Of a stretch of DNA of 55,331 bases, positions 22,550-38,683 are shown piece after piece. Origin of the DNA: a bacterium (GTDB lineage Bacteria > Actinomycetota > Acidimicrobiia > Spongiisociales > UBA5794); NCBI GenBank assembly GCA_024228555.1, contig JAAETI010000199.1, positions 1 through 55,331 on the forward strand, written 5' to 3'. Every line of letters begins with the position of its first letter. Position 1 is the stretch's first letter. The translations under genes and the position numbers were made by a program. The notes under the pieces are model-generated. The model saw nothing but the letters and a program-made list of their open reading frames with translations. It was not told the DNA's origin and did not search any database.

Positions 22550-23260
22550 ATGAAGCGACTCTCCCTCCTCCTGCTGGTACCGCTGACCCTCGCCACCGCC
22601 TGCGGTAACAGTGAGGAACCGGCATCTACCCTGCCCCCCGACGCCGCAGTGGTATTGGAAGCCAGCGCCCAGGCAATGGGCTCCGTGGAGTCGGTGCGCT
22701 TCCTGATCGAGCGCAGCGGGGCGCCGGTCTACATCGACAACCTCGACACCTTGAACTTCGCCCTAGCTGAGGGCCAGTTCGCTGCACCGTCGTCGGCGAA
22801 TGCGGTCGTGACGCTTGCAGTCGGCAACATCAACGCCCAGATAGGTGCCATCGCCATCGACGGCCAAACCTGGCTGACCAACCCCATAACGGGGGAATGG
22901 GACGAAGCCCCTTCCGGCTACGACTTTGACCCGGCGACGCTGTTCGATCCGGAACTCGGGTGGCGTCCGCTACTCGCCGATGGACTCAGCGGTGTTGAGT
23001 GGATTGGAGAGGAGACCAGGAATTCAGAACCCCGCTATCACATACGTGCCGTCGCCGATGAGGACCGCGTCGCCCTGATCCTTGCCGGGCTCATCAGGAA
23101 GCAACCGGTCGACCTCGACGTGTGGATCGATCCAGCAAGTGGCTACGTTCGCGAGGCAGAACTCTCCACGGTGTACGAGGGTCAAACTAGTGACTGGTAC
23201 ATAGAGTTCTCCGAATTCGATGTCCCGATCGAGATCGAACCGCCCGACATCGAGAGTTGA
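22550..23260 (+). CDS. LprG/LppX-like lipoprotein
   Basis: A 236-residue lipoprotein with lipobox LATAC (Cys18). The body fits the LppX/LprAFG family: a half-barrel with a hydrophobic cavity, starting VVLEASAQAMGSVESVRFLIE and including TWLTNPITGEWDE and the C-terminal DVWIDPASGYVREAEL. In mycobacteria LprG carries triacylated lipids and is encoded just before the Rv1410c/P55 MFS transporter. The same arrangement occurs here, with a 7-nt gap, so a shared lipid export role is a reasonable inference. Confidence 0.82.
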   Translation: MKRLSLLLLVPLTLATACGNSEEPASTLPPDAAVVLEASAQAMGSVESVRFLIERSGAPVYIDNLDTLNFALAEGQFAAPSSANAVVTLAVGNINAQIGAIAIDGQTWLTNPITGEWDEAPSGYDFDPATLFDPELGWRPLLADGLSGVEWIGEETRNSEPRYHIRAVADEDRVALILAGLIRKQPVDLDVWIDPASGYVREAELSTVYEGQTSDWYIEFSEFDVPIEIEPPDIES

Positions 23261-23267
23261 TACCGAA

Positions 23268-25472
23268 ATGAAGCGACGCGAGGCATCACCACGTGCCGTT
23301 CTGATCGTTGTCGCGTTCGGCATCTTCATAGCCGCCGATGATCTGACCGTGGTCACGACCATGTTGCGCCCGATCATCAACGATCTCGGGATCGTTCTCC
23401 CCGACGGTATCGACGATGCGGCTTGGATCGTCAACGCCTACCTCATCGCCTATGTCGCAGTCATGCCGTTCATGGGACGCCTCAGCGATGTCCTCGGGCG
23501 CCGCCGTGTCTACATCGCCGCGATGACTCTCTTTCTCGCAGGCTCGATCATCATCCCGATGACAAGCAGCCTGGGCCCATTCCTGTTCGGACGGGTGCTG
23601 ACGGCAATGGGTGGCGGGGCACTGGTCCCAATTGGTATGGCGGCGGTCAGCGACGCTTATGCGGAAAGGAAGAGGGCGCGCGCACTCGGCGTGTTGGCCG
23701 CGATCGACACGCTGGGCTGGGTATGGGGACCCCTCTATGGAGCGATGATCGTCCGCTTCCTCACCTGGAGATGGCAGTTCCACTTCAACATCCCGCTCGC
23801 CATTATCGGAATCGTCGCGGCCTGGTATGTCCTCGAAGATGCAACAGCCGACCAGCGCAAAGCCAGAATCGACTGGACCGGAGCCGCGCTGCTGACAACG
23901 GCCCTGGTGAGCCTCAATCTCGCACTGCTCGGCAGCGCCGAAATCCAGAGCGTGACCGGTCTCGATGAGCTGACCGGCCGATCCGGGTCTGGACTGGTCT
24001 GGCTATATCCAGTCGCGTTGGTGGCTGGAGTTGGGTTTGTGTTCTGGCAGCGCCGTGTCGATCACCCGCTGATCGACCCCGCTCTGTTCCGAGGACGCAA
24101 TCTGGTGGCCGCCGTTGCAGTGAACTTCTTCGTTGGGGCGACTCTGGTGATCGCCATGGTCAACGTTCCGCTGATCATCAACGTCGTGGAGTTGAACCTG
24201 GAACGGGCCGCCGTAACCACAGGGTGGGTGCTCAGCTCGCTGACGGCGTTCATGTCTCTCGCCTCATACGTCGGGGGGCGGATAACCGAAAGCCGGTGGT
24301 ACCGGCCTCCCGTTCTGATCGGCCTAGCTCTGTCCGCGATTGCATTCTTCATGATGGGCTACGGCTGGGAAGTGAGTACCAGCTATTCGACCATCGCCAT
24401 CTTTCTGGCAATCCTCGGCACCGGCTTTGGCCTGACCATGGCACCGACTACGGCTGCGGTGGTTGATGCTGCGCCTGCGGACAGGCGCGGCACGGCAGCC
24501 AGTCTCGTCATGGTTGTTCGCCTGATTGGCCTCTCGGTTGGCTTGTCCAGCCTCACCGCCTGGGGGTTGCACCGTTTCAATCAACTCCGAACCGAAATTG
24601 ACCTGCCCGCCATTACCGATCCTGACTACGCCAAGGCAGCCACGGCCGCATCCGCCGAGCTGACTACGGCTGCAATGACCGAAACCTTCGTCGCCGCGGG
24701 CGTTCTGATCATCGTCGCTTTCCTCATTGCAACGATGATGAAACGAACTTCCGCCAAGCCCGAACCCGAAACCGACCCGGCAGCCCAGGGGGTGCCCATG
24801 AATCAGTTCATAAGCCGCAACATGACACCCATCGTGCTCGGCACAGCTGCGTTGCTGGTTGCGCTAGCCGCGGCCACCTTCTTCATGGCAAGCAGGGTCA
24901 GCAGCCTGTCCGATGATCTCGAGGCCGCTCAGAGCCAACAAGCCGAGCTCGAAGCCAACATCGCACGGGTCGAGGGCGGTGCGGCACTCTATGCATCGCA
25001 GGTGACTGCATTCCAGGAGCAACTGGGTGGGCTTGGCCCAACCATTGACTCGGCACTCGGAGAAGCGGTAACCGGAATCGATGAATTCCGCACCTCCACC
25101 ATCCGGTTCGATGTCAGCATCAACGAGGTTGTCCCCATCAATGCTGATGTCGTGCTCGACAGAACCGTCCAGGTGCCTATCAAGACGACGATCCCAATTG
25201 ATGAGTCATTCGATACGACCATCACGATCAATGGTCCCTTTGGCATCGATATCCCCTTGGATATCACCGTCCCCATCCAGCTGGATCTACCGATCGACCT
25301 GGACGTTGCGATCCCGATCAACGAAACCATCCCCGTCAACACTGAAGTACCCGTGAACCTGGACGTACCGATCGTGATCGATATCGCGGAGACCGACCTC
25401 GCTGCTCTTGCAGATGCGCTTGCTCAGGGTCTGGAGTCCTTTCGCGAAATGGCGTCGCAGCTCGGCGGCTAG
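23268..25472 (+). CDS. P55-like 14-helix MFS exporter fused to a coiled-coil/beta-repeat C-terminal domain
   Basis: A 734-residue protein from the ATG at 23268. Residues of about 10-500 are an MFS exporter (LRPIINDLGIVLPD near residue 40, then AYVAVMPFMGRLSDVLGRRR) similar in order to mycobacterial P55, which works with LprG. From about residue 511 a second module begins: MNQFISRNMTPIVLGTAALL (helix), a coiled coil (SLSDDLEAAQSQQAELEANI), and a beta-rich run of VPI/IPI repeats to about residue 705. An internal ATG at 24798, with AGGGGGT five nt upstream, suggests this module was or still is a separate translation unit. No stop lies between the parts. Confidence 0.85.
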   Translation: MKRREASPRAVLIVVAFGIFIAADDLTVVTTMLRPIINDLGIVLPDGIDDAAWIVNAYLIAYVAVMPFMGRLSDVLGRRRVYIAAMTLFLAGSIIIPMTSSLGPFLFGRVLTAMGGGALVPIGMAAVSDAYAERKRARALGVLAAIDTLGWVWGPLYGAMIVRFLTWRWQFHFNIPLAIIGIVAAWYVLEDATADQRKARIDWTGAALLTTALVSLNLALLGSAEIQSVTGLDELTGRSGSGLVWLYPVALVAGVGFVFWQRRVDHPLIDPALFRGRNLVAAVAVNFFVGATLVIAMVNVPLIINVVELNLERAAVTTGWVLSSLTAFMSLASYVGGRITESRWYRPPVLIGLALSAIAFFMMGYGWEVSTSYSTIAIFLAILGTGFGLTMAPTTAAVVDAAPADRRGTAASLVMVVRLIGLSVGLSSLTAWGLHRFNQLRTEIDLPAITDPDYAKAATAASAELTTAAMTETFVAAGVLIIVAFLIATMMKRTSAKPEPETDPAAQGVPMNQFISRNMTPIVLGTAALLVALAAATFFMASRVSSLSDDLEAAQSQQAELEANIARVEGGAALYASQVTAFQEQLGGLGPTIDSALGEAVTGIDEFRTSTIRFDVSINEVVPINADVVLDRTVQVPIKTTIPIDESFDTTITINGPFGIDIPLDITVPIQLDLPIDLDVAIPINETIPVNTEVPVNLDVPIVIDIAETDLAALADALAQGLESFREMASQLGG

Positions 25473-25636: not shown

Positions 25637-28600
25637 CTAGGTAGCCGGCCAGATCCGAAGTGCAATACGACGCCCCCGCAAGTCGGCGGCTACGTACTCG
25701 ACCTCTTGACCCTCGGTGAGCGTCTCCATCTCGTCCAAGGCCTGGCCATGCACAAACACTTCGCCGTCACCTTCGGTAGGAGCCAGCATGCCCAGTCCGT
25801 GAATAGTGTCGAAAGACTTCACGATTCCGCGTTCATGGTGTTTGGCTGCGGCTGCGGGGAGATAGGAGATACGTCCCACGGTGAGAGCAAGCAGCAACGC
25901 TATCGCCAGCAGCAGGAGCGGTAGGCCGAGCCCAGACAACGATGAGATGCCGCTGCCGGAGGCGGCGACAACTGCTCTGGGGATGGCGGCAGCAAACCCC
26001 TCGTCATCCTCCGCCGGGGGCTCCCATAGTGCGCTGGTGGCAACGACCACTTCGACCCGAGGGCTGTCATCGATCCCCGGGACCACAACAGTCTCGGCCG
26101 CGATCACGGTGAGCACAACAGTGGCAGTGGACTCCTCGCCGAGCGCATCGGTCGCCACGTAAATGAACTTGTCTCCACCAACGAATCCTTCGTCTGGTTG
26201 ATACGTGAAGGAACCATCGCTGTTGAGAACGAGTACCCCGTGGTCTGGATCAGACACAACAGAAACCGACAGTTCCTCGTTGTCGGGGTCCGAGTCGTTT
26301 CGAAGCACGCCAGGAGTATCGACAGTCAGAATTTCGCCCTCATCCAATTCATACTCGTCTGGCGAGGCAGTTGGCGGATTGTTCTCGGTGCGGATCTCGA
26401 TTGTGACGATCGCCTCGGCTTCAAATTCACCGTCGCTGACCATGAAGGTGAACGTGTCGCCGTCATCGCCACCTTCGGTGAGATATACCCGATCCGGTCC
26501 TTCCCCTTCGAGGACACCAAAGACTGGTTCATCCAGGATCGTGTATTCGAGTTCATCCCCGTCCGGATCCTCGGCGATCAGGATCAAAGGTGTCTCTTGA
26601 TCAACGAACGCGATGAACTCGAAGTCGGTTGCCGTTGGCGGCCGGTTGGTGTCATCCACCCGCCATTGGAACGACACCTTGTTCGACTTGACCGGCTTGC
26701 CGTTGTCCGTCGCAGTAACTGTCACCGTATAGGGAGAGGCCGCCGCCGCTTCGTAATCGACCGCACCTGAGATCACACCCGAGGACGGGTTGATCGAAAG
26801 ACCGCCGGGCAGACCGCTGGCGGAGAACTGCAGCGAATCCGTGTCATCTGGATCGCTGGCCGCAACCTTCAGCGAGACCGAATCCCCTTCGGCCGAGCGC
26901 TGGTCGGCAAGGCTCGTGACCTCGGGCGCAGCGTTGATTTTGGGAACGACAATGGTCACGAGTTGTGTGTCCGACAGTCGAGGCGACCCGGAGTCGGAGA
27001 CACCAACGTTTATCCGGTAGGTAGCGGCGTGCTGATCTTCGGTCGGCTTCCAGGTGAATCTCCCCGTATCGGGATCGATCGCGGCGCCTGTTGGAACGGG
27101 GTCGATGCCGTCGGCTAGCCAGTAATTGAGCGTATCTGCGCTATCGGCATCGGTGGCGGTTGCGGTGAACGTCACCGGGTCCCCGCTCTCCGGATTCTGA
27201 TCCGCAATCTGGCCGAGTACCGGGGCGTGATTGCCCCTCGTGACCTGCCATGCGAAGGTCTTGACGGTCTTGGCTTGCGGCGTACCGTTGTCCCTCACAG
27301 TCATAGTCGCCGTTCCGGTGCCTTGCGATGCCCCAGTCGGGATAGTGCCGCTGATCAGGCCCGAAGTCCGGTTGATTGCAACCCCAGGGGGCATACCGGT
27401 TGCCGCAAACGTCAGAGCGTTGGGAGGAATATCGGCGTCGATTGCCACAACGGGGTACGACATCGTGTCACCGGCACCCAACGCCTGATCGGGGATGTAT
27501 GCCACCTCAGGAGGGGCATTCACCTCAACAACAGTGACGTTGAACGACCGGACTACCGAGGCAGGCGGGCTTGCCGAATCCTTGACCTTGACCTTGAACC
27601 CGTAGGTACCGGGCCCATTCGACTCAGTGGGGGTCCACTTGATCACGCCGCTCGAGTTGATCGTTGCGCCGGACGGCGAACTGGTCAGGCTGTAGTTGAG
27701 CGAATCACCCGGCAGATCTGGATCGTCGGCATCGACCACGATTTGGAGGGCTACCTCCTCCTCGGCCGTTGCGTTGGCGATCGCCGACATCGTCGGGGAA
27801 CGATTCAGATCATCGATCGACCATATGAAGGACTCGGTATCTTCACCACCCTCCCCATCGGCGACCTTCACCACAGTCGTATATGGCGAGGCAGCGGCAG
27901 TCGTGTAGCCGAGGGTTCCGGAAACAGACCCGGTGTTCGTGTTGATGGAGATACCCGGGGGCAAACCGCTGGCGCTGAAGCTCAGATCGTCATCGTTGGG
28001 ATCAGTCGCAGCAACCCTGAAGCTGACCGAATCTGCCTCCGTGTCGTTGCGGTCGGGCAATGAGGTCGTGATCGTGGGACTGGCGTTACTGGACAGCGCT
28101 ACCTGGACGTTGTCGACGTAGAAGTACCCGCCAAACTCACCGTTGCCAAAGAAGCCGAGCTTGAGAGAAGAGCCAGCATATGCGGACACATCGATGCTCT
28201 GCGCAACGTTGCCGGAGTCGCTGGTATTGAGTTGATAGGTCCTGAGCGTGTTCCACGACCAACCGTCGGTGGAAGCTCGCACCATCATCGTGCCATTGCC
28301 GTCACCGTCGTACTGGCGGCGGAATGAGAACGTGAGAGTTGCGGCAGTCGATCCCGTCAGGTCAACGTCACGGAAAGCACCCCGTCCCGCTACATCGCCG
28401 GGCCCGATCCTGAGGCAATTACTGGCCGCACAACGTGAATTCGACACGACCTGAAACTCACCGGTCGTTGGTCCGTTGGTCAATGGCACTTCCAGCCAGC
28501 TGCCACCCCAGGACACCGAACCATCGTTTCCCGAGTAGCTGACCGAGCTGAACTCGTCACGGACGTAGCCGTTCGAGCCTGCTTGAGCTGGGACCAGGAC

Positions 28601-28654
28601 AGCCAAGAACAGCACCGTTGTGAGGGCGAGAGCGGTCGCGCGGAGCACGATCAT
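25637..28654 (-). CDS. Large surface protein: cadherin/He_PIG-like repeats, one helix, cytoplasmic cold-shock-like domain
   Basis: A 1005-residue type I membrane protein. A signal peptide (cleavage near AQA, residue 25) is followed by a beta-sandwich of about 165 residues. Next come repeated Ig/cadherin-like units with recurrent DPDxDxLxF..GLPPGISI..TGxIsG patterns (about residues 193-690), then Cadherin_5/VCBS-like units ending QPDEGFVGGDKFIYVATDAL. One helix (about residues 908-928) precedes a 64-residue tail, RGIVKSFDTIHGLGMLAP...VFVHG, that matches the cold-shock domain. RNP1 aromatics are replaced (GLGML for GFGFI), while VFVH of RNP2 is kept. The start ATG overlaps the histidine kinase stop (ATGA, 28651-28654). 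Confidence 0.9.
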   Translation of the reverse strand: MIVLRATALALTTVLFLAVLVPAQAGSNGYVRDEFSSVSYSGNDGSVSWGGSWLEVPLTNGPTTGEFQVVSNSRCAASNCLRIGPGDVAGRGAFRDVDLTGSTAATLTFSFRRQYDGDGNGTMMVRASTDGWSWNTLRTYQLNTSDSGNVAQSIDVSAYAGSSLKLGFFGNGEFGGYFYVDNVQVALSSNASPTITTSLPDRNDTEADSVSFRVAATDPNDDDLSFSASGLPPGISINTNTGSVSGTLGYTTAAASPYTTVVKVADGEGGEDTESFIWSIDDLNRSPTMSAIANATAEEEVALQIVVDADDPDLPGDSLNYSLTSSPSGATINSSGVIKWTPTESNGPGTYGFKVKVKDSASPPASVVRSFNVTVVEVNAPPEVAYIPDQALGAGDTMSYPVVAIDADIPPNALTFAATGMPPGVAINRTSGLISGTIPTGASQGTGTATMTVRDNGTPQAKTVKTFAWQVTRGNHAPVLGQIADQNPESGDPVTFTATATDADSADTLNYWLADGIDPVPTGAAIDPDTGRFTWKPTEDQHAATYRINVGVSDSGSPRLSDTQLVTIVVPKINAAPEVTSLADQRSAEGDSVSLKVAASDPDDTDSLQFSASGLPGGLSINPSSGVISGAVDYEAAAASPYTVTVTATDNGKPVKSNKVSFQWRVDDTNRPPTATDFEFIAFVDQETPLILIAEDPDGDELEYTILDEPVFGVLEGEGPDRVYLTEGGDDGDTFTFMVSDGEFEAEAIVTIEIRTENNPPTASPDEYELDEGEILTVDTPGVLRNDSDPDNEELSVSVVSDPDHGVLVLNSDGSFTYQPDEGFVGGDKFIYVATDALGEESTATVVLTVIAAETVVVPGIDDSPRVEVVVATSALWEPPAEDDEGFAAAIPRAVVAASGSGISSLSGLGLPLLLLAIALLLALTVGRISYLPAAAAKHHERGIVKSFDTIHGLGMLAPTEGDGEVFVHGQALDEMETLTEGQEVEYVAADLRGRRIALRIWPAT

Positions 28655-30033
28655 TCCGGAGCCGCAGCAAGCAGTTCGTCGTCGACGTCAGCTGGAGGAC
28701 TGCCCTGCACCATTGGGAGCGACAGGACAAACCCGGTCCGGCCCGGCACCCTGTCGTATTCGAGGTTGCCCTCCATCGAGTTCGCCAACAGGTGGGCAAC
28801 GGCTAAACCGAGTCCGACTGATCCGGCAGTGAGCGGCGCGTCTCCCTGATGCACAAAGCGTGAGAACAGACGGGACTCAACGTTCTCCGGCACGCCCGGC
28901 CCGTCGTCTTCCACCGACACGACATAGTTGTTGCCTGCGACATCGCCGTAGACACGGATGGTATCGCCACCATGTTGAATCGCGTTCGAAACTAGGTTGC
29001 GCAGGATTTGGCGGATCCGGAGCTGATCACCAAGCACGGTCCCCGGCCCGTAGGTGCCACCGATTTCAGTACCGCGGCGCCGGAACGGCGCCATCACGGT
29101 GTCTAATTCCTGTTCCACATCGACCGGCACCGACTCCATAGCGAGCGGGGCATCAGAATCGTGGGCCGCGACCAACAAGTCCTCAACCATCCTGGCCAAC
29201 TCGGCAGACTCTGTGTTGATCAGACCGACAAGGTCACCGGCAGCGGCAGGATCGACAAACCCCTGGTCAAGAAGGACCTCCGAGAACCCATAGATCGACG
29301 TAAGGGGGGTGCGGAGCTCGTGAGAGATGTTGGCGATGAACTGATCCTTGGCCCTCCCCACCGACTTCTCAGCTTCCAGCCGAGCATCGAGATGGGCCTC
29401 AGCTACTTCAATCTGGTTTCTGGTAGACATGCGATAGGCAACAATGGCGCCCAGCGGCAGTAGGAATGCCGTAAGGAACCCCGCTATCTGCGCCGCCCGG
29501 CCAACCAGATTCTGGGCATCGTCGACAGCTTTGGCGCGTTCATTCCGCTCAACCGTCACAACTCCGGCAAGCTCCTCAGCGGCAGGGACCAGCGTGGTAA
29601 CAAGCTCCTGTGATGCAGCGGTCGGTTCCCCCGCAATAGCAAGGTTGATGACGTCGGAGGCTGCCTCCTCCCACGCCCAGAAAGCGGGAGTCAGCGCGTT
29701 TGACGTCTCTTCGTCAAGAGAATCAAAGCGGGACATGAGAGCCGCAATGGCTCGCTCGACTTCGGTAGCAGCAGCAGCGACGGAGTCATCGCTTGCGGTT
29801 CCGAGTTCTCTGTCCTGTGCGAGCAGGACGAGCTGACCGATCGATTTCATCGCAACGTCTTGTGCCACCAACGTCATATCGGCGGTGTGCAGAGCGGCAG
29901 CCTCTTCGAGAGTCTCGCCCGCATTACGAGAATTCGTAAATGCCAGCGCCGCAAACGCGAGTATGAGACCACCAACAATGGCAGCCCCGATCCAACCAAG
30001 CACACGCGACTGGTTTTCTGGTGTCGTAGCCAT
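28651..30033 (-). CDS. Membrane sensor histidine kinase
   Basis: A 460-residue kinase. Helix 1 spans residues 12-33, a helical extracytoplasmic sensor of about 145 residues resembles a four-helix-bundle ligand domain, and helix 2 spans about 181-201. The HisKA H-box is FIANISHELRTPLTSIYGF (His238). The N-box has NLVSNAIQHGG, G1 is EDDGPGVP and G2 is GSVGLGLAVAH. No response regulator gene is adjacent, so it is an orphan. Its stop overlaps the start of the large surface protein by 4 nt, which implies joint translation and a shared task, perhaps sensing contact or envelope state. Confidence 0.92.
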   Translation of the reverse strand: MATTPENQSRVLGWIGAAIVGGLILAFAALAFTNSRNAGETLEEAAALHTADMTLVAQDVAMKSIGQLVLLAQDRELGTASDDSVAAAATEVERAIAALMSRFDSLDEETSNALTPAFWAWEEAASDVINLAIAGEPTAASQELVTTLVPAAEELAGVVTVERNERAKAVDDAQNLVGRAAQIAGFLTAFLLPLGAIVAYRMSTRNQIEVAEAHLDARLEAEKSVGRAKDQFIANISHELRTPLTSIYGFSEVLLDQGFVDPAAAGDLVGLINTESAELARMVEDLLVAAHDSDAPLAMESVPVDVEQELDTVMAPFRRRGTEIGGTYGPGTVLGDQLRIRQILRNLVSNAIQHGGDTIRVYGDVAGNNYVVSVEDDGPGVPENVESRLFSRFVHQGDAPLTAGSVGLGLAVAHLLANSMEGNLEYDRVPGRTGFVLSLPMVQGSPPADVDDELLAAAPE

Positions 30034-30105: not shown

Positions 30106-32160
30106 CTACCCCGGGAAATCAGGGTGGCCGAGGTTGTGAAGGAAGAAGGCATAGATGTCGGCGGCTTCATCGATGAGCTTGGCGGTGGGCTTGCCCAGCC
30201 CGTGACCCGCACGTTTGTCGACCCGGAGCAACGCGGGACCCGATTCCCCAACCGCATCCTGCAGTTCAGCGATGAATTTGTAGGAATGGAGCGGCACGAC
30301 ACGATCATCGGAGTCACCAGTCGCTATCAACGTCGGTGGGTACGTTGCCGGTTCCACGTTGTGAAGAGGCGAGTACTCAAAAAGGAAGTCGAAGTCCTCG
30401 TAGCTCTCCTCGGCATCGCCGTACTCGGGTTTCCAGTAGCGGCCGGCGGAGAACAGCTGATAACGGAGCATGTCGGTGACCGGCACCATGCCGACTACGG
30501 CACCGAACAGGTCCGGTCTTTGCAGCAAGCAAGCGGTAACCAGCAGACCCCCGTTGGATCGACCGTAGATGCCGAGATTCCTCGATGATGTGTACCCGGC
30601 GGTAATCAGGTGCTCAGCGGCCGCAATGAAGTCGTCGAAGACGTTCTGCTTCTTGCCGAGCATGCCGGCACGGTGCCAGTCCTTGCCGAATTCGCCGCCA
30701 CCGCGCAGATTGGCGACGGCAAAGACGCCACCCGCCTCTATGAACCCCAATCGATCCGGGGCGTACAGCGGAGTCATGCTGATATCGAAACCGCCGTACC
30801 CATAGAGAATCGTTGGCGTTGCCCCATCGGGAATGAGGTCGCTGCGGTGGGTCACAAACATCGGAATGGGTGTCCCATCGAGCGACTCGGCCCATGTCTG
30901 AATGGTGGTGAACGCATCCGGATCGAGCGATGACTCTGATCCCGAGAACAGCTCGAGCGTTTCTTGGTCAAAATCGTAGCGAAGCACTGTTGGAGGCTGG
31001 ACAAACGACTGGAAGCCGACGAACAGCTCACGATGGTTCGGCTTGCCCGAGATCTGGGTGATCGTGCCCATCGTCGGCAGCTCGAGATCCTTGAGATGCA
31101 ATCCATCGAGGTCATAGATCGCTACGACGTGATGAGCGTTGTGCAATGAGCCGGTCACCAAGGAGCCGGCGACGATTGTGGCGAATTCGAGCGGGTCCCC
31201 GCCTTCAGGGATGATCTCGCGCCACGCAGTCGGCTCCGGGTGGTCGAGGTCGATGGCAATAAGTCGACCCAGCGGTGTATCGAGGTCGGTGATCAGATAG
31301 AGCCAACCCGCATGATGACCGACTAGGTGATACTTGGCGTCGAAGCCATCGAGAAGCCGGACAAAATCGCCATCATTGCCTAGTCGCCGGTAGTAGACAC
31401 GATTGCGGGTATCGGTTCCCTGCCAAACATGCAACGTGAGCAGTTCACCATCGTCGCTGACCATTGGGTTGAACCCAAGATCTGGCGCATCTGGTCGCTC
31501 GTAGACGAGTTTGTCAGACTCCTGGTCGGTGCCTAGCTGATGCAGATAAACACGATGATGAGTACTGGGAGGTGCGTCGGGAAACTCACCGGGAGCCGGG
31601 TAGCGGCTGTAGAAGAACGAATCACCGTCCGGATGCCAGGCGAACGGTGTGAATTTGATCCAGTTCAGTTCGTCATCGAGGTGCTCCCCGGACGCAACGT
31701 CGAGAACCCTTCCAACCCGCCAATCGCTCCCCGCCTCAGCAACGGTGTAGGCCAGCAAACGCCCGTCCTTGGTGAAGGACTGGGTCATCAACGCGACGGT
31801 ACCGTCCTCTGACATCGCATTGGGGTCAAGGACAACAGAATCCCCGCCACCGTCGACCTTGCGCTTGTACAAGACCGGCTGCGCCTGCAGTCCATTGTTG
31901 TGCGAGTAGAAGTACCAGTCACCGCGCCGCACCGGCGCTGACTGCCTCGGGAAGTCCCACAATTGCTCGAATCGTTGCCGAATCCGATCGCGCTGGGGAA
32001 TGGCGCCGAGGACGGAAAGTGTCAGCTTATTCTGCTCATCGACCCAGGCTCGGGTTTCCGCTGAATCCGTCTCTTCCAACCACCGAAAGGGGTCCGAAAC
32101 GAGGGTTCCGTGATAGCTGTCAACGTCATCATCACGTCGAGATATCGGGTATTCGATCAT
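30106..32160 (-). CDS. Prolyl oligopeptidase family serine peptidase (S9A)
   Basis: A 684-residue protein from the ATG at 32160, preceded by AAGGAG six nt upstream; a longer reading from 32238 would add 26 residues without a ribosome site. The N-terminal strand DPFRWLEETDSAETRAWVDE and a seven-bladed propeller precede the alpha/beta hydrolase domain. The nucleophile is the Ser in GRSNGGLLV, the Asp lies in ATGDSDDRV and the His in RAGHGLGK. It cleaves short proline-containing peptides. No signal peptide is seen, so it is probably cytoplasmic. Confidence 0.93.
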   Translation of the reverse strand: MIEYPISRRDDDVDSYHGTLVSDPFRWLEETDSAETRAWVDEQNKLTLSVLGAIPQRDRIRQRFEQLWDFPRQSAPVRRGDWYFYSHNNGLQAQPVLYKRKVDGGGDSVVLDPNAMSEDGTVALMTQSFTKDGRLLAYTVAEAGSDWRVGRVLDVASGEHLDDELNWIKFTPFAWHPDGDSFFYSRYPAPGEFPDAPPSTHHRVYLHQLGTDQESDKLVYERPDAPDLGFNPMVSDDGELLTLHVWQGTDTRNRVYYRRLGNDGDFVRLLDGFDAKYHLVGHHAGWLYLITDLDTPLGRLIAIDLDHPEPTAWREIIPEGGDPLEFATIVAGSLVTGSLHNAHHVVAIYDLDGLHLKDLELPTMGTITQISGKPNHRELFVGFQSFVQPPTVLRYDFDQETLELFSGSESSLDPDAFTTIQTWAESLDGTPIPMFVTHRSDLIPDGATPTILYGYGGFDISMTPLYAPDRLGFIEAGGVFAVANLRGGGEFGKDWHRAGMLGKKQNVFDDFIAAAEHLITAGYTSSRNLGIYGRSNGGLLVTACLLQRPDLFGAVVGMVPVTDMLRYQLFSAGRYWKPEYGDAEESYEDFDFLFEYSPLHNVEPATYPPTLIATGDSDDRVVPLHSYKFIAELQDAVGESGPALLRVDKRAGHGLGKPTAKLIDEAADIYAFFLHNLGHPDFPG

Positions 32161-32275
32161 CAGAACTCCTTCGCCAACGACGTGTTGCGCAAGTCTCGAC
32201 ATAGCAATCGCAAGGACTGCAAAGCCATGAGGCCGCAAACGCCATACCGTGATCGTAAGCCCTCAGAAGGAAACA

Positions 32276-38035: not shown

Positions 38036-38683
38036 CTACTGAACTAGCCCATTCTTGACGGCAAGCACCGCAGCCTGAGTCCGGTCGGCCACCTGTAGTT
38101 TGGCCAGAACGGCGCTCACATAGTTGCGCACGGTGCCTTCGGACAAGAACAGCTGTGCAGCTATCTCGTTGTTGCTCAGCCCCTTGCCGAGCAGGCGAAG
38201 TACATCCAACTCACGATCACTGAGACTGTCGGCAACGGTACTGTCAGGACCCTCTCCCGCCATCGCCACCCTGGCAAAGAGATCACCGGCAACCGTTGGG
38301 TCGACGTGGGTCTTGCCTGCGGCCGTCCCTCTGATGGCACTCACCAGCTGTTCGCGGGGTGCGTCCTTGAGCATGTACCCGGCGGCACCTGCCCGGATCG
38401 CATCGACCACCCATTCTTCAGCGTCGTAGGTGGTCAGGACCAGAACCTTGACCTCGGGGTGCTGGGCTGCAATTTCCCGCGTGGCCTGGACGCCATTCTT
38501 GATGGGCATGTTGAGATCCATCAACACGACATGGGGGTTCATGGCGGAAACGGCTTCCACAGCTTCGGCGCCGTTGCCCACAACACCGACAACTTCGATA
38601 CCGGGAACGTTACCCAAGATGGCGCGCAACCCTTCGCGAACGACCTCCTGGTCGTCGCAGATCAGAAGGCGGATTACTTCCAT
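38036..38683 (-). CDS. NarL/LuxR-type response regulator
   Basis: A 215-residue two-component regulator. The receiver domain has the acidic pair in LLICDDQEVVREGL, phospho-acceptor Asp56 in VVLMDLNMP, Thr in VLVLTTYD and Lys in YMLKDA. The C-terminal LuxR-type helix-turn-helix has LSDRELDVLRLLGKGLSNNE and FLSEGTVRNYVSAVLAKLQ. Its start overlaps the kinase gene by 10 nt, so the pair is co-translated and almost surely cognate. The lipoprotein gene on the opposite strand beyond the kinase is a possible target. Confidence 0.95.
   Translation of the reverse strand: MEVIRLLICDDQEVVREGLRAILGNVPGIEVVGVVGNGAEAVEAVSAMNPHVVLMDLNMPIKNGVQATREIAAQHPEVKVLVLTTYDAEEWVVDAIRAGAAGYMLKDAPREQLVSAIRGTAAGKTHVDPTVAGDLFARVAMAGEGPDSTVADSLSDRELDVLRLLGKGLSNNEIAAQLFLSEGTVRNYVSAVLAKLQVADRTQAAVLAVKNGLVQ

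Follow-up and report, generated by a model that had tools for sequence, protein, structure and literature searches.

Why should a bacterial surface protein built of cadherin-like repeats end inside the cell in a cold-shock domain (CSD), and why should it be encoded together with a sensor histidine kinase? Both questions are posed by two adjoining minus-strand genes in the 55,331-nucleotide stretch of DNA analyzed here (the window), for which the initial annotation had suggested that both proteins are produced jointly and that the tail might convey an outside signal to RNA or DNA. Both open reading frames are indeed present, and the shared ATGA is real (Table 1); the interpretation placed on them is, overall, partly supported by what follows.

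Table 1. Features of the kinase/surface-protein locus and its upstream neighbor; residues are those of the surface protein.
Feature	Position	Strand	Basis
Prolyl oligopeptidase gene	30106..32238	(-)	Pfam S9; 72 bases upstream of kinase, same strand
Sensor histidine kinase, 460 aa	28651..30033	(-)	ORF and Pfam, AlphaFold model, family alignment
ATGA, kinase stop/surface-protein start overlap	28651..28654	(-)	Read from sequence
CSD-tailed surface protein, 1005 aa	25637..28654	(-)	ORF, Pfam
Signal peptide MIVLRATALALTTVLFLAVLVPAQA, residues 1-25	28580..28654	(-)	Read from translation by inspection
N-terminal beta domain, ~residues 26-190	28085..28579	(-)	NCBIfam NF038128 5.5e-5, below cut-off
Ig/cadherin-like repeat region, ~residues 191-865	26060..28084	(-)	Pfam He_PIG, Big_9, Cadherin_4
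Juxtamembrane helix, TM helix and basic stop-transfer, ~residues 892-940	25835..25980	(-)	Hydropathy in orthologs, AlphaFold model
Cold-shock domain, residues 942-1002	25649..25831	(-)	Pfam CSD, AlphaFold model vs CspA, residue check

The kinase carries the H-box and the N and G boxes of a HisKA-type sensor kinase, with FIANISHELRTPL present, in a HisKA domain (residues 228-287, Pfam 3.4e-15) and a HATPase_c domain (335-441, 1.1e-20). Its two transmembrane helices (~15-33 and ~181-199) enclose an extracellular four-helix bundle (~35-180) that AlphaFold models at pLDDT above 90 over most of its length. A HAMP domain was detected neither by Pfam nor in the AlphaFold model, where one continuous helix leads from TM2 into the HisKA dimer helix, and the matches to the complete kinase model in a fold search were for the most part catalytic cores. 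In an orthologous kinase from another genome (G003, L042:9251-10588), SIRQLSVPV stands where SHELRTP is expected, so that the phospho-acceptor H-box is gone, and the F-box region is shortened. This kinase still has HATPase_c and its place before a CSD-tailed gene; it is a natural pseudokinase, and phosphotransfer is therefore dispensable there.

The surface protein has the architecture of a cadherin/Ig-like bacterial adhesin, namely a signal peptide recognized by inspection, tandem repeats (He_PIG 2.3e-57, Big_9 4.6e-46, Cadherin_4 1.9e-27) and a membrane anchor. The repeats, to which some 880 extracellular residues had been assigned, are present but cover about 700 residues, not all 880, and their type suggests an adhesive role. 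The single membrane helix that had been proposed is found by hydropathy in orthologs as one C-terminal helix (~907-925) with a basic stop-transfer segment. The N-terminal beta domain weakly resembles choice-of-anchor J (23.4 bits against the 30-bit cut-off of NF038128), and is common to the short-tailed relatives described below, as judged from matches to their N-termini.

That the tail reads as a cold-shock domain, as first suspected, was confirmed in two ways. First, it belongs to Pfam CSD (PF00313; 35.8 bits, E 7.6e-9, cut-off 27 bits), scoring under every CSP equivalog cut-off; the scores of some orthologs fall just under the Pfam cut-off (26.8 and 25.8 bits). Second, AlphaFold predicts the last 125 residues as a helix spanning the juxtamembrane and TM segments, followed by a five-stranded beta-barrel of the CSD type (strands 59-69, 74-79, 86-89, 104-112 and 115-123; pLDDT mostly above 90), for which Foldseek returned CspA, CRHSP-24 and CspE as the best PDB matches. 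Compared with CspA (2l15), the model gave a TM score of 0.86 by target at 31% identity over 68 aligned columns, so that the fold is of the cold-shock type; another OB type is ruled out, since the top structural matches are CSPs and Pfam agrees. Because the protein has a signal peptide and a single stop-transfer helix, the CSD is expected to be cytoplasmic.

To see how widely this architecture occurs, we searched 395 genomes of the class (order included) and 396 of the phylum with a profile of the juxtamembrane, TM and CSD segments. It recovered 19 CSD-tailed surface proteins (112-165 bits) in 14 genomes, all within three families of one order; no CSD tail from outside the order was among the matches listed from these genomes, the next best being ordinary CSPs that score about 60 bits at most and align essentially over the CSD part only. 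The named relatives are metagenome-assembled genomes of Acidimicrobiia/Acidimicrobiaceae. Full-length orthologs of the window protein occur in six other genomes (40-54% identity, CSD in all), and the window's own genome holds a second CSD pair, on contig C489, with a surface protein of 2183 aa. Ectodomains vary among the members, two of which contain YCF48-like BNR repeats. The surface gene of genome G042 (L080:8790-14580) is split into two frames by a frameshift inside YCF48-like repeats, which is either genuine or due to faulty assembly; it was counted as one interrupted gene and left unmended.

The association with the kinase, which the initial annotation had noted at this one locus, holds wherever it can be read. 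A kinase of the same family lies directly upstream of the CSD-tailed gene in all 16 readable cases, the other three of the 19 ending at a contig edge; in the other direction, a CSD-tailed gene comes after 16 of the 23 kinases with scores above 185 bits, the remaining seven running into contig ends, and this 16/16 in both directions rules out chance pairing. Neither of the outcomes that the initial annotation had named as refuting it, a tail of some other fold or homologues whose two genes are never adjacent, was thus observed. In 15 of the 16 pairs the genes overlap or lie at most 4 bases apart (ATGA in eight, GTGA in one), the exception being L077 with a 73-base gap. Kinase and tail trees mirror each other (r 0.82, Mantel p 1e-4), the correlation being highest for the sensor and TM2 region of the kinase (0.825) and lower for the catalytic core (0.73), and where genomes hold two modules, kinase and tail select the same paralogue pairing in six of six genome pairs. 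Since linked inheritance alone could produce such a correlation, these comparisons establish co-inheritance and not contact: as judged from their sequences, the kinase and surface-protein genes remain linked and evolve in parallel.

The kinase had also been described as an orphan with no adjacent response regulator. This is accurate for the window, where the nearest regulator is of the LuxR type (38036-38683), 8 kb away and beside its own HisKA_3 kinase, but it fails as a family property, in that 11 of the 19 modules have a receiver-only (CheY-like) gene next to them, which would complete a two-component system there. Among these is the second module of the window's genome, on C489, in which a receiver search of that genome placed the gene directly behind the surface gene. 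The module receivers (L006:11575-11988, L075, L076, L077, L081, L082, L084 and others) lie mostly downstream on the same strand, twice downstream on the opposite strand and once upstream of the kinase, and on a tree they cluster together, apart from most other regulators of the window's genome. No receiver was found beside the module in any locus of the window's seven-member ortholog group or in L045, all of which were scanned. A decayed receiver suspected by eye at 25613-25287(-) ("MPVDVPIFLGGSAIKGDERAKFLGAE...") gave nothing above chance with a receiver profile or tblastn. In G042 (L080), three receivers stand in a row, one of them on the opposite strand.

The CSD version proves to be one branch of a wider family. 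In a kinase tree from a quick search, whose root was not inferred, the kinases of CSD-tailed proteins form a single clade (support 98) within a larger set of kinase/surface-protein pairs, CSD and short tails are each confined to one side of a branch (98 and 99), and the tail types require two changes, with none of 200 shuffles giving so low a number. Other kinases of this family, with lower scores and spread over the order, likewise precede signal-peptide proteins, mostly with a -4 overlap, whose ectodomains have the N-terminal domain in common or are otherwise beta-rich. Ten complete partners of this kind possess a juxtamembrane helix and TM segment like those of the CSD-tailed proteins and end 6-19 residues later, with no CSD; pairing with the kinase therefore does not need the CSD. 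Two partners in family f8 carry instead a different tail of ~220 aa with no Pfam match. The juxtamembrane/TM segment is thus the constant element, onto which the CSD has been placed as an added, exchangeable tail. The ~220-aa cytoplasmic region (L148:1877-6622, L149:3496-11646 and L087, from f8 and, in a long protein, from G003) is possibly an SH3-like domain plus another domain of no known type. Weak matches to the kinase sensor were seen outside the order (L157 in G327, from another order, and G575:C50:17058-17597); in G327, the gene that comes next, at -4, encodes a secreted protein of more than 2200 aa, so that the general kinase/surface-protein pairing may extend beyond its CSD version.

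The model that we favor, with confidence a little better than even, is that of a lineage-restricted, envelope-sensing two-component module in which the surface protein serves as the ectodomain partner of the kinase. The two proteins would be made together and associate in the membrane, where the surface protein would pack its TM/juxtamembrane helix against the bundle and TM helices of the kinase. Contact of the ectodomain with a neighboring cell, matrix or wall could then alter helix packing and, with it, kinase activity; phosphate would pass to the stand-alone receiver or, in the window's branch, to a receiver encoded elsewhere, and the receiver, because it has no DNA-binding domain, would act through protein binding. 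The CSD, which would derive from a nucleic-acid-binding CSD, might serve in the cytoplasm as a platform on which the receiver, the kinase or some other protein docks; this role is the least certain part of the model, and our confidence in it is lower than in the frame as a whole. The model is weakened by the lack of a receiver in the window's branch and of the H-box in L042.

Information could conceivably flow in the opposite direction, the kinase sensing the envelope by its own bundle and, via the receiver and the CSD tail, tuning how the surface protein is placed, turned over or made to adhere, in which case gene order would reflect co-regulation. The kinase does own a complete extracellular sensor, adjacency and parallel divergence are compatible with either direction, and a receiver that binds proteins would find a natural target in an adhesin with a tail. 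However, the short-tailed partners keep the pairing with just 6-19 residues inside the cell, which leaves little to act upon, and we regard this direction as rather unlikely.

Whether the tail could instead act on nucleic acid, as the initial annotation had thought possible, depends on its binding face. A CSD binds nucleic acid through conserved aromatic residues (RNP1/RNP2) of a basic face, against which the bases stack (PMC7825780). When these positions were counted by CspB numbering in the 19 members, the window CSD was found to have lost most of them (W8S, F15L, F17M and F30G; F27 and H29 are kept), and its 75-residue tail is net acidic (charge -5), with similar erosion in its orthologs. 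The tail thus lacks the basic surface with exposed RNP1/RNP2 aromatics of a functional nucleic-acid-binding CSP; with the stacking residues mostly lost and the charge acidic, binding of RNA or DNA by the window copy is doubtful. In families f5 and f7, on the other hand, members retain W8, F/Y15, F/Y17, F27 and H29 on net positive tails (+3 to +9); f1 members retain part of the set, and F30 is replaced in all 19. Accordingly, the f5/f7 tails may still bind RNA and the window copy probably does not; we read the window's branch as having retained the fold while its ligand changed or weakened. Small divergent cold-shock-like proteins (for instance L005, G000:C243:55050-55238) are also encoded in most genomes of the order, with scores near or below the Pfam cut-off; another of them, L071, likewise has no W8.

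These observations bear on the proposal that the tail, tethered at the membrane or freed by intramembrane proteolysis, binds single-stranded nucleic acid, such that adhesion or stretch would alter the translation, decay or localization of RNA near the membrane, the same cue being read a second time by the kinase. The modeled CspA fold and the intact, positively charged f5/f7 tails speak for it, but the substitutions in the window and its orthologs, together with the universal loss of F30, speak against it. The genome does encode three rhomboid proteases, which are found in nearly every genome and are thus uninformative on proteolytic release. We consider this proposal unlikely, and for the window's own copy outside-to-RNA/DNA signaling appears less probable than protein docking. 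Equally, we would give only a slim chance to the broader idea of a transmembrane receptor class, in which an adhesin with an RNA-binding CSD as effector would relay contact or stretch both to the kinase/receiver pathway and directly to RNA at the membrane; if true, it would represent the bacterial counterpart of adhesion receptors whose tail acts on nucleic acid.

The erosion of the binding face might also mean that the CSD, joined in a single fusion event to a short-tailed ancestor of the surface gene, is by now a drifting, functionless passenger, which would agree with relatives managing without it. This seems to us very improbable. The domain is kept in 19 of 19 members across three families, positions of the tail are conserved (for example RGRRIAL among genus orthologs), and purifying selection acts on the CSD codons to the same degree as on the rest of the protein (dN/dS about 0.13-0.29, a rough estimate with synonymous sites near saturation).

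LuxP-LuxQ, TorT-TorS and CpxP-CpxA are two-component systems in which an accessory sensor protein works outside the cytoplasm, and sensors of the TorS type are helical bundles. The module described here resembles them in combining a sensor kinase with a separate extracytoplasmic protein encoded nearby, but differs in that the partner is translationally coupled to the kinase, membrane-anchored, 1000-2300 residues long and Ig/cadherin-like, with a folded cytoplasmic domain, and in that the evidence here consists of adjacency, overlap and parallel divergence. The window tail shares the five-stranded fold and Pfam CSD membership with the CspA/CspB family; unlike those proteins, it sits at the C terminus of a type I membrane protein, on the cytoplasmic side, and has lost most binding-face residues. 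Adhesins with the same He_PIG/Big_9/Cadherin_4 repeat composition usually end in a sorting signal or a short tail, whereas here a folded domain lies inside the cell, and in the literature searched we found no report of a folded domain of nucleic-acid-binding type in that position. Like regulators of the CheY/DivK/Spo0F type, the receivers of the modules consist of a receiver domain only and show the conserved Asp and Lys regions, but they stand beside a kinase and an adhesin, and are missing from the window's own branch. A full-text literature search, partial in that it covered few subscription papers, yielded no description of the combination of this kinase with a CSD-tailed adhesin. The arrangement of a kinase with an accessory surface protein is known in kind, while the CSD-tailed adhesin appears to be new, and together they apparently constitute an undescribed, conserved outside-to-inside signaling set.

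Giant Ig/cadherin-like surface proteins are numerous in bacteria, and their link to signaling is unexplained. Here, gene order ties such proteins, whose cytoplasmic tails are of three kinds, one of them a cold-shock fold, to one kinase family across an entire order, and often a dedicated receiver is added. This amounts to a natural experiment on the ways in which adhesins can inform the cytoplasm, and the coexistence of eroded and intact CSDs makes it possible to ask what job a cold-shock fold performs at the inner face of the membrane.

Two neighbors of the pair deserve mention. The order of prolyl oligopeptidase and kinase genes, judged by ORF position and length, recurs in four genus relatives (L039-L042), so that the peptidase may belong to the operon there; it is apparently a conserved neighbor within the genus, and outside the genus is no part of the module. 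At 23220-25472, the window also encodes an MFS transporter (residues 31-441) with an unusual C-terminal extension of short repeated strands in which V/I-P-I motifs abound (VPINADVVLDRTVQVPIKTTIPID...).
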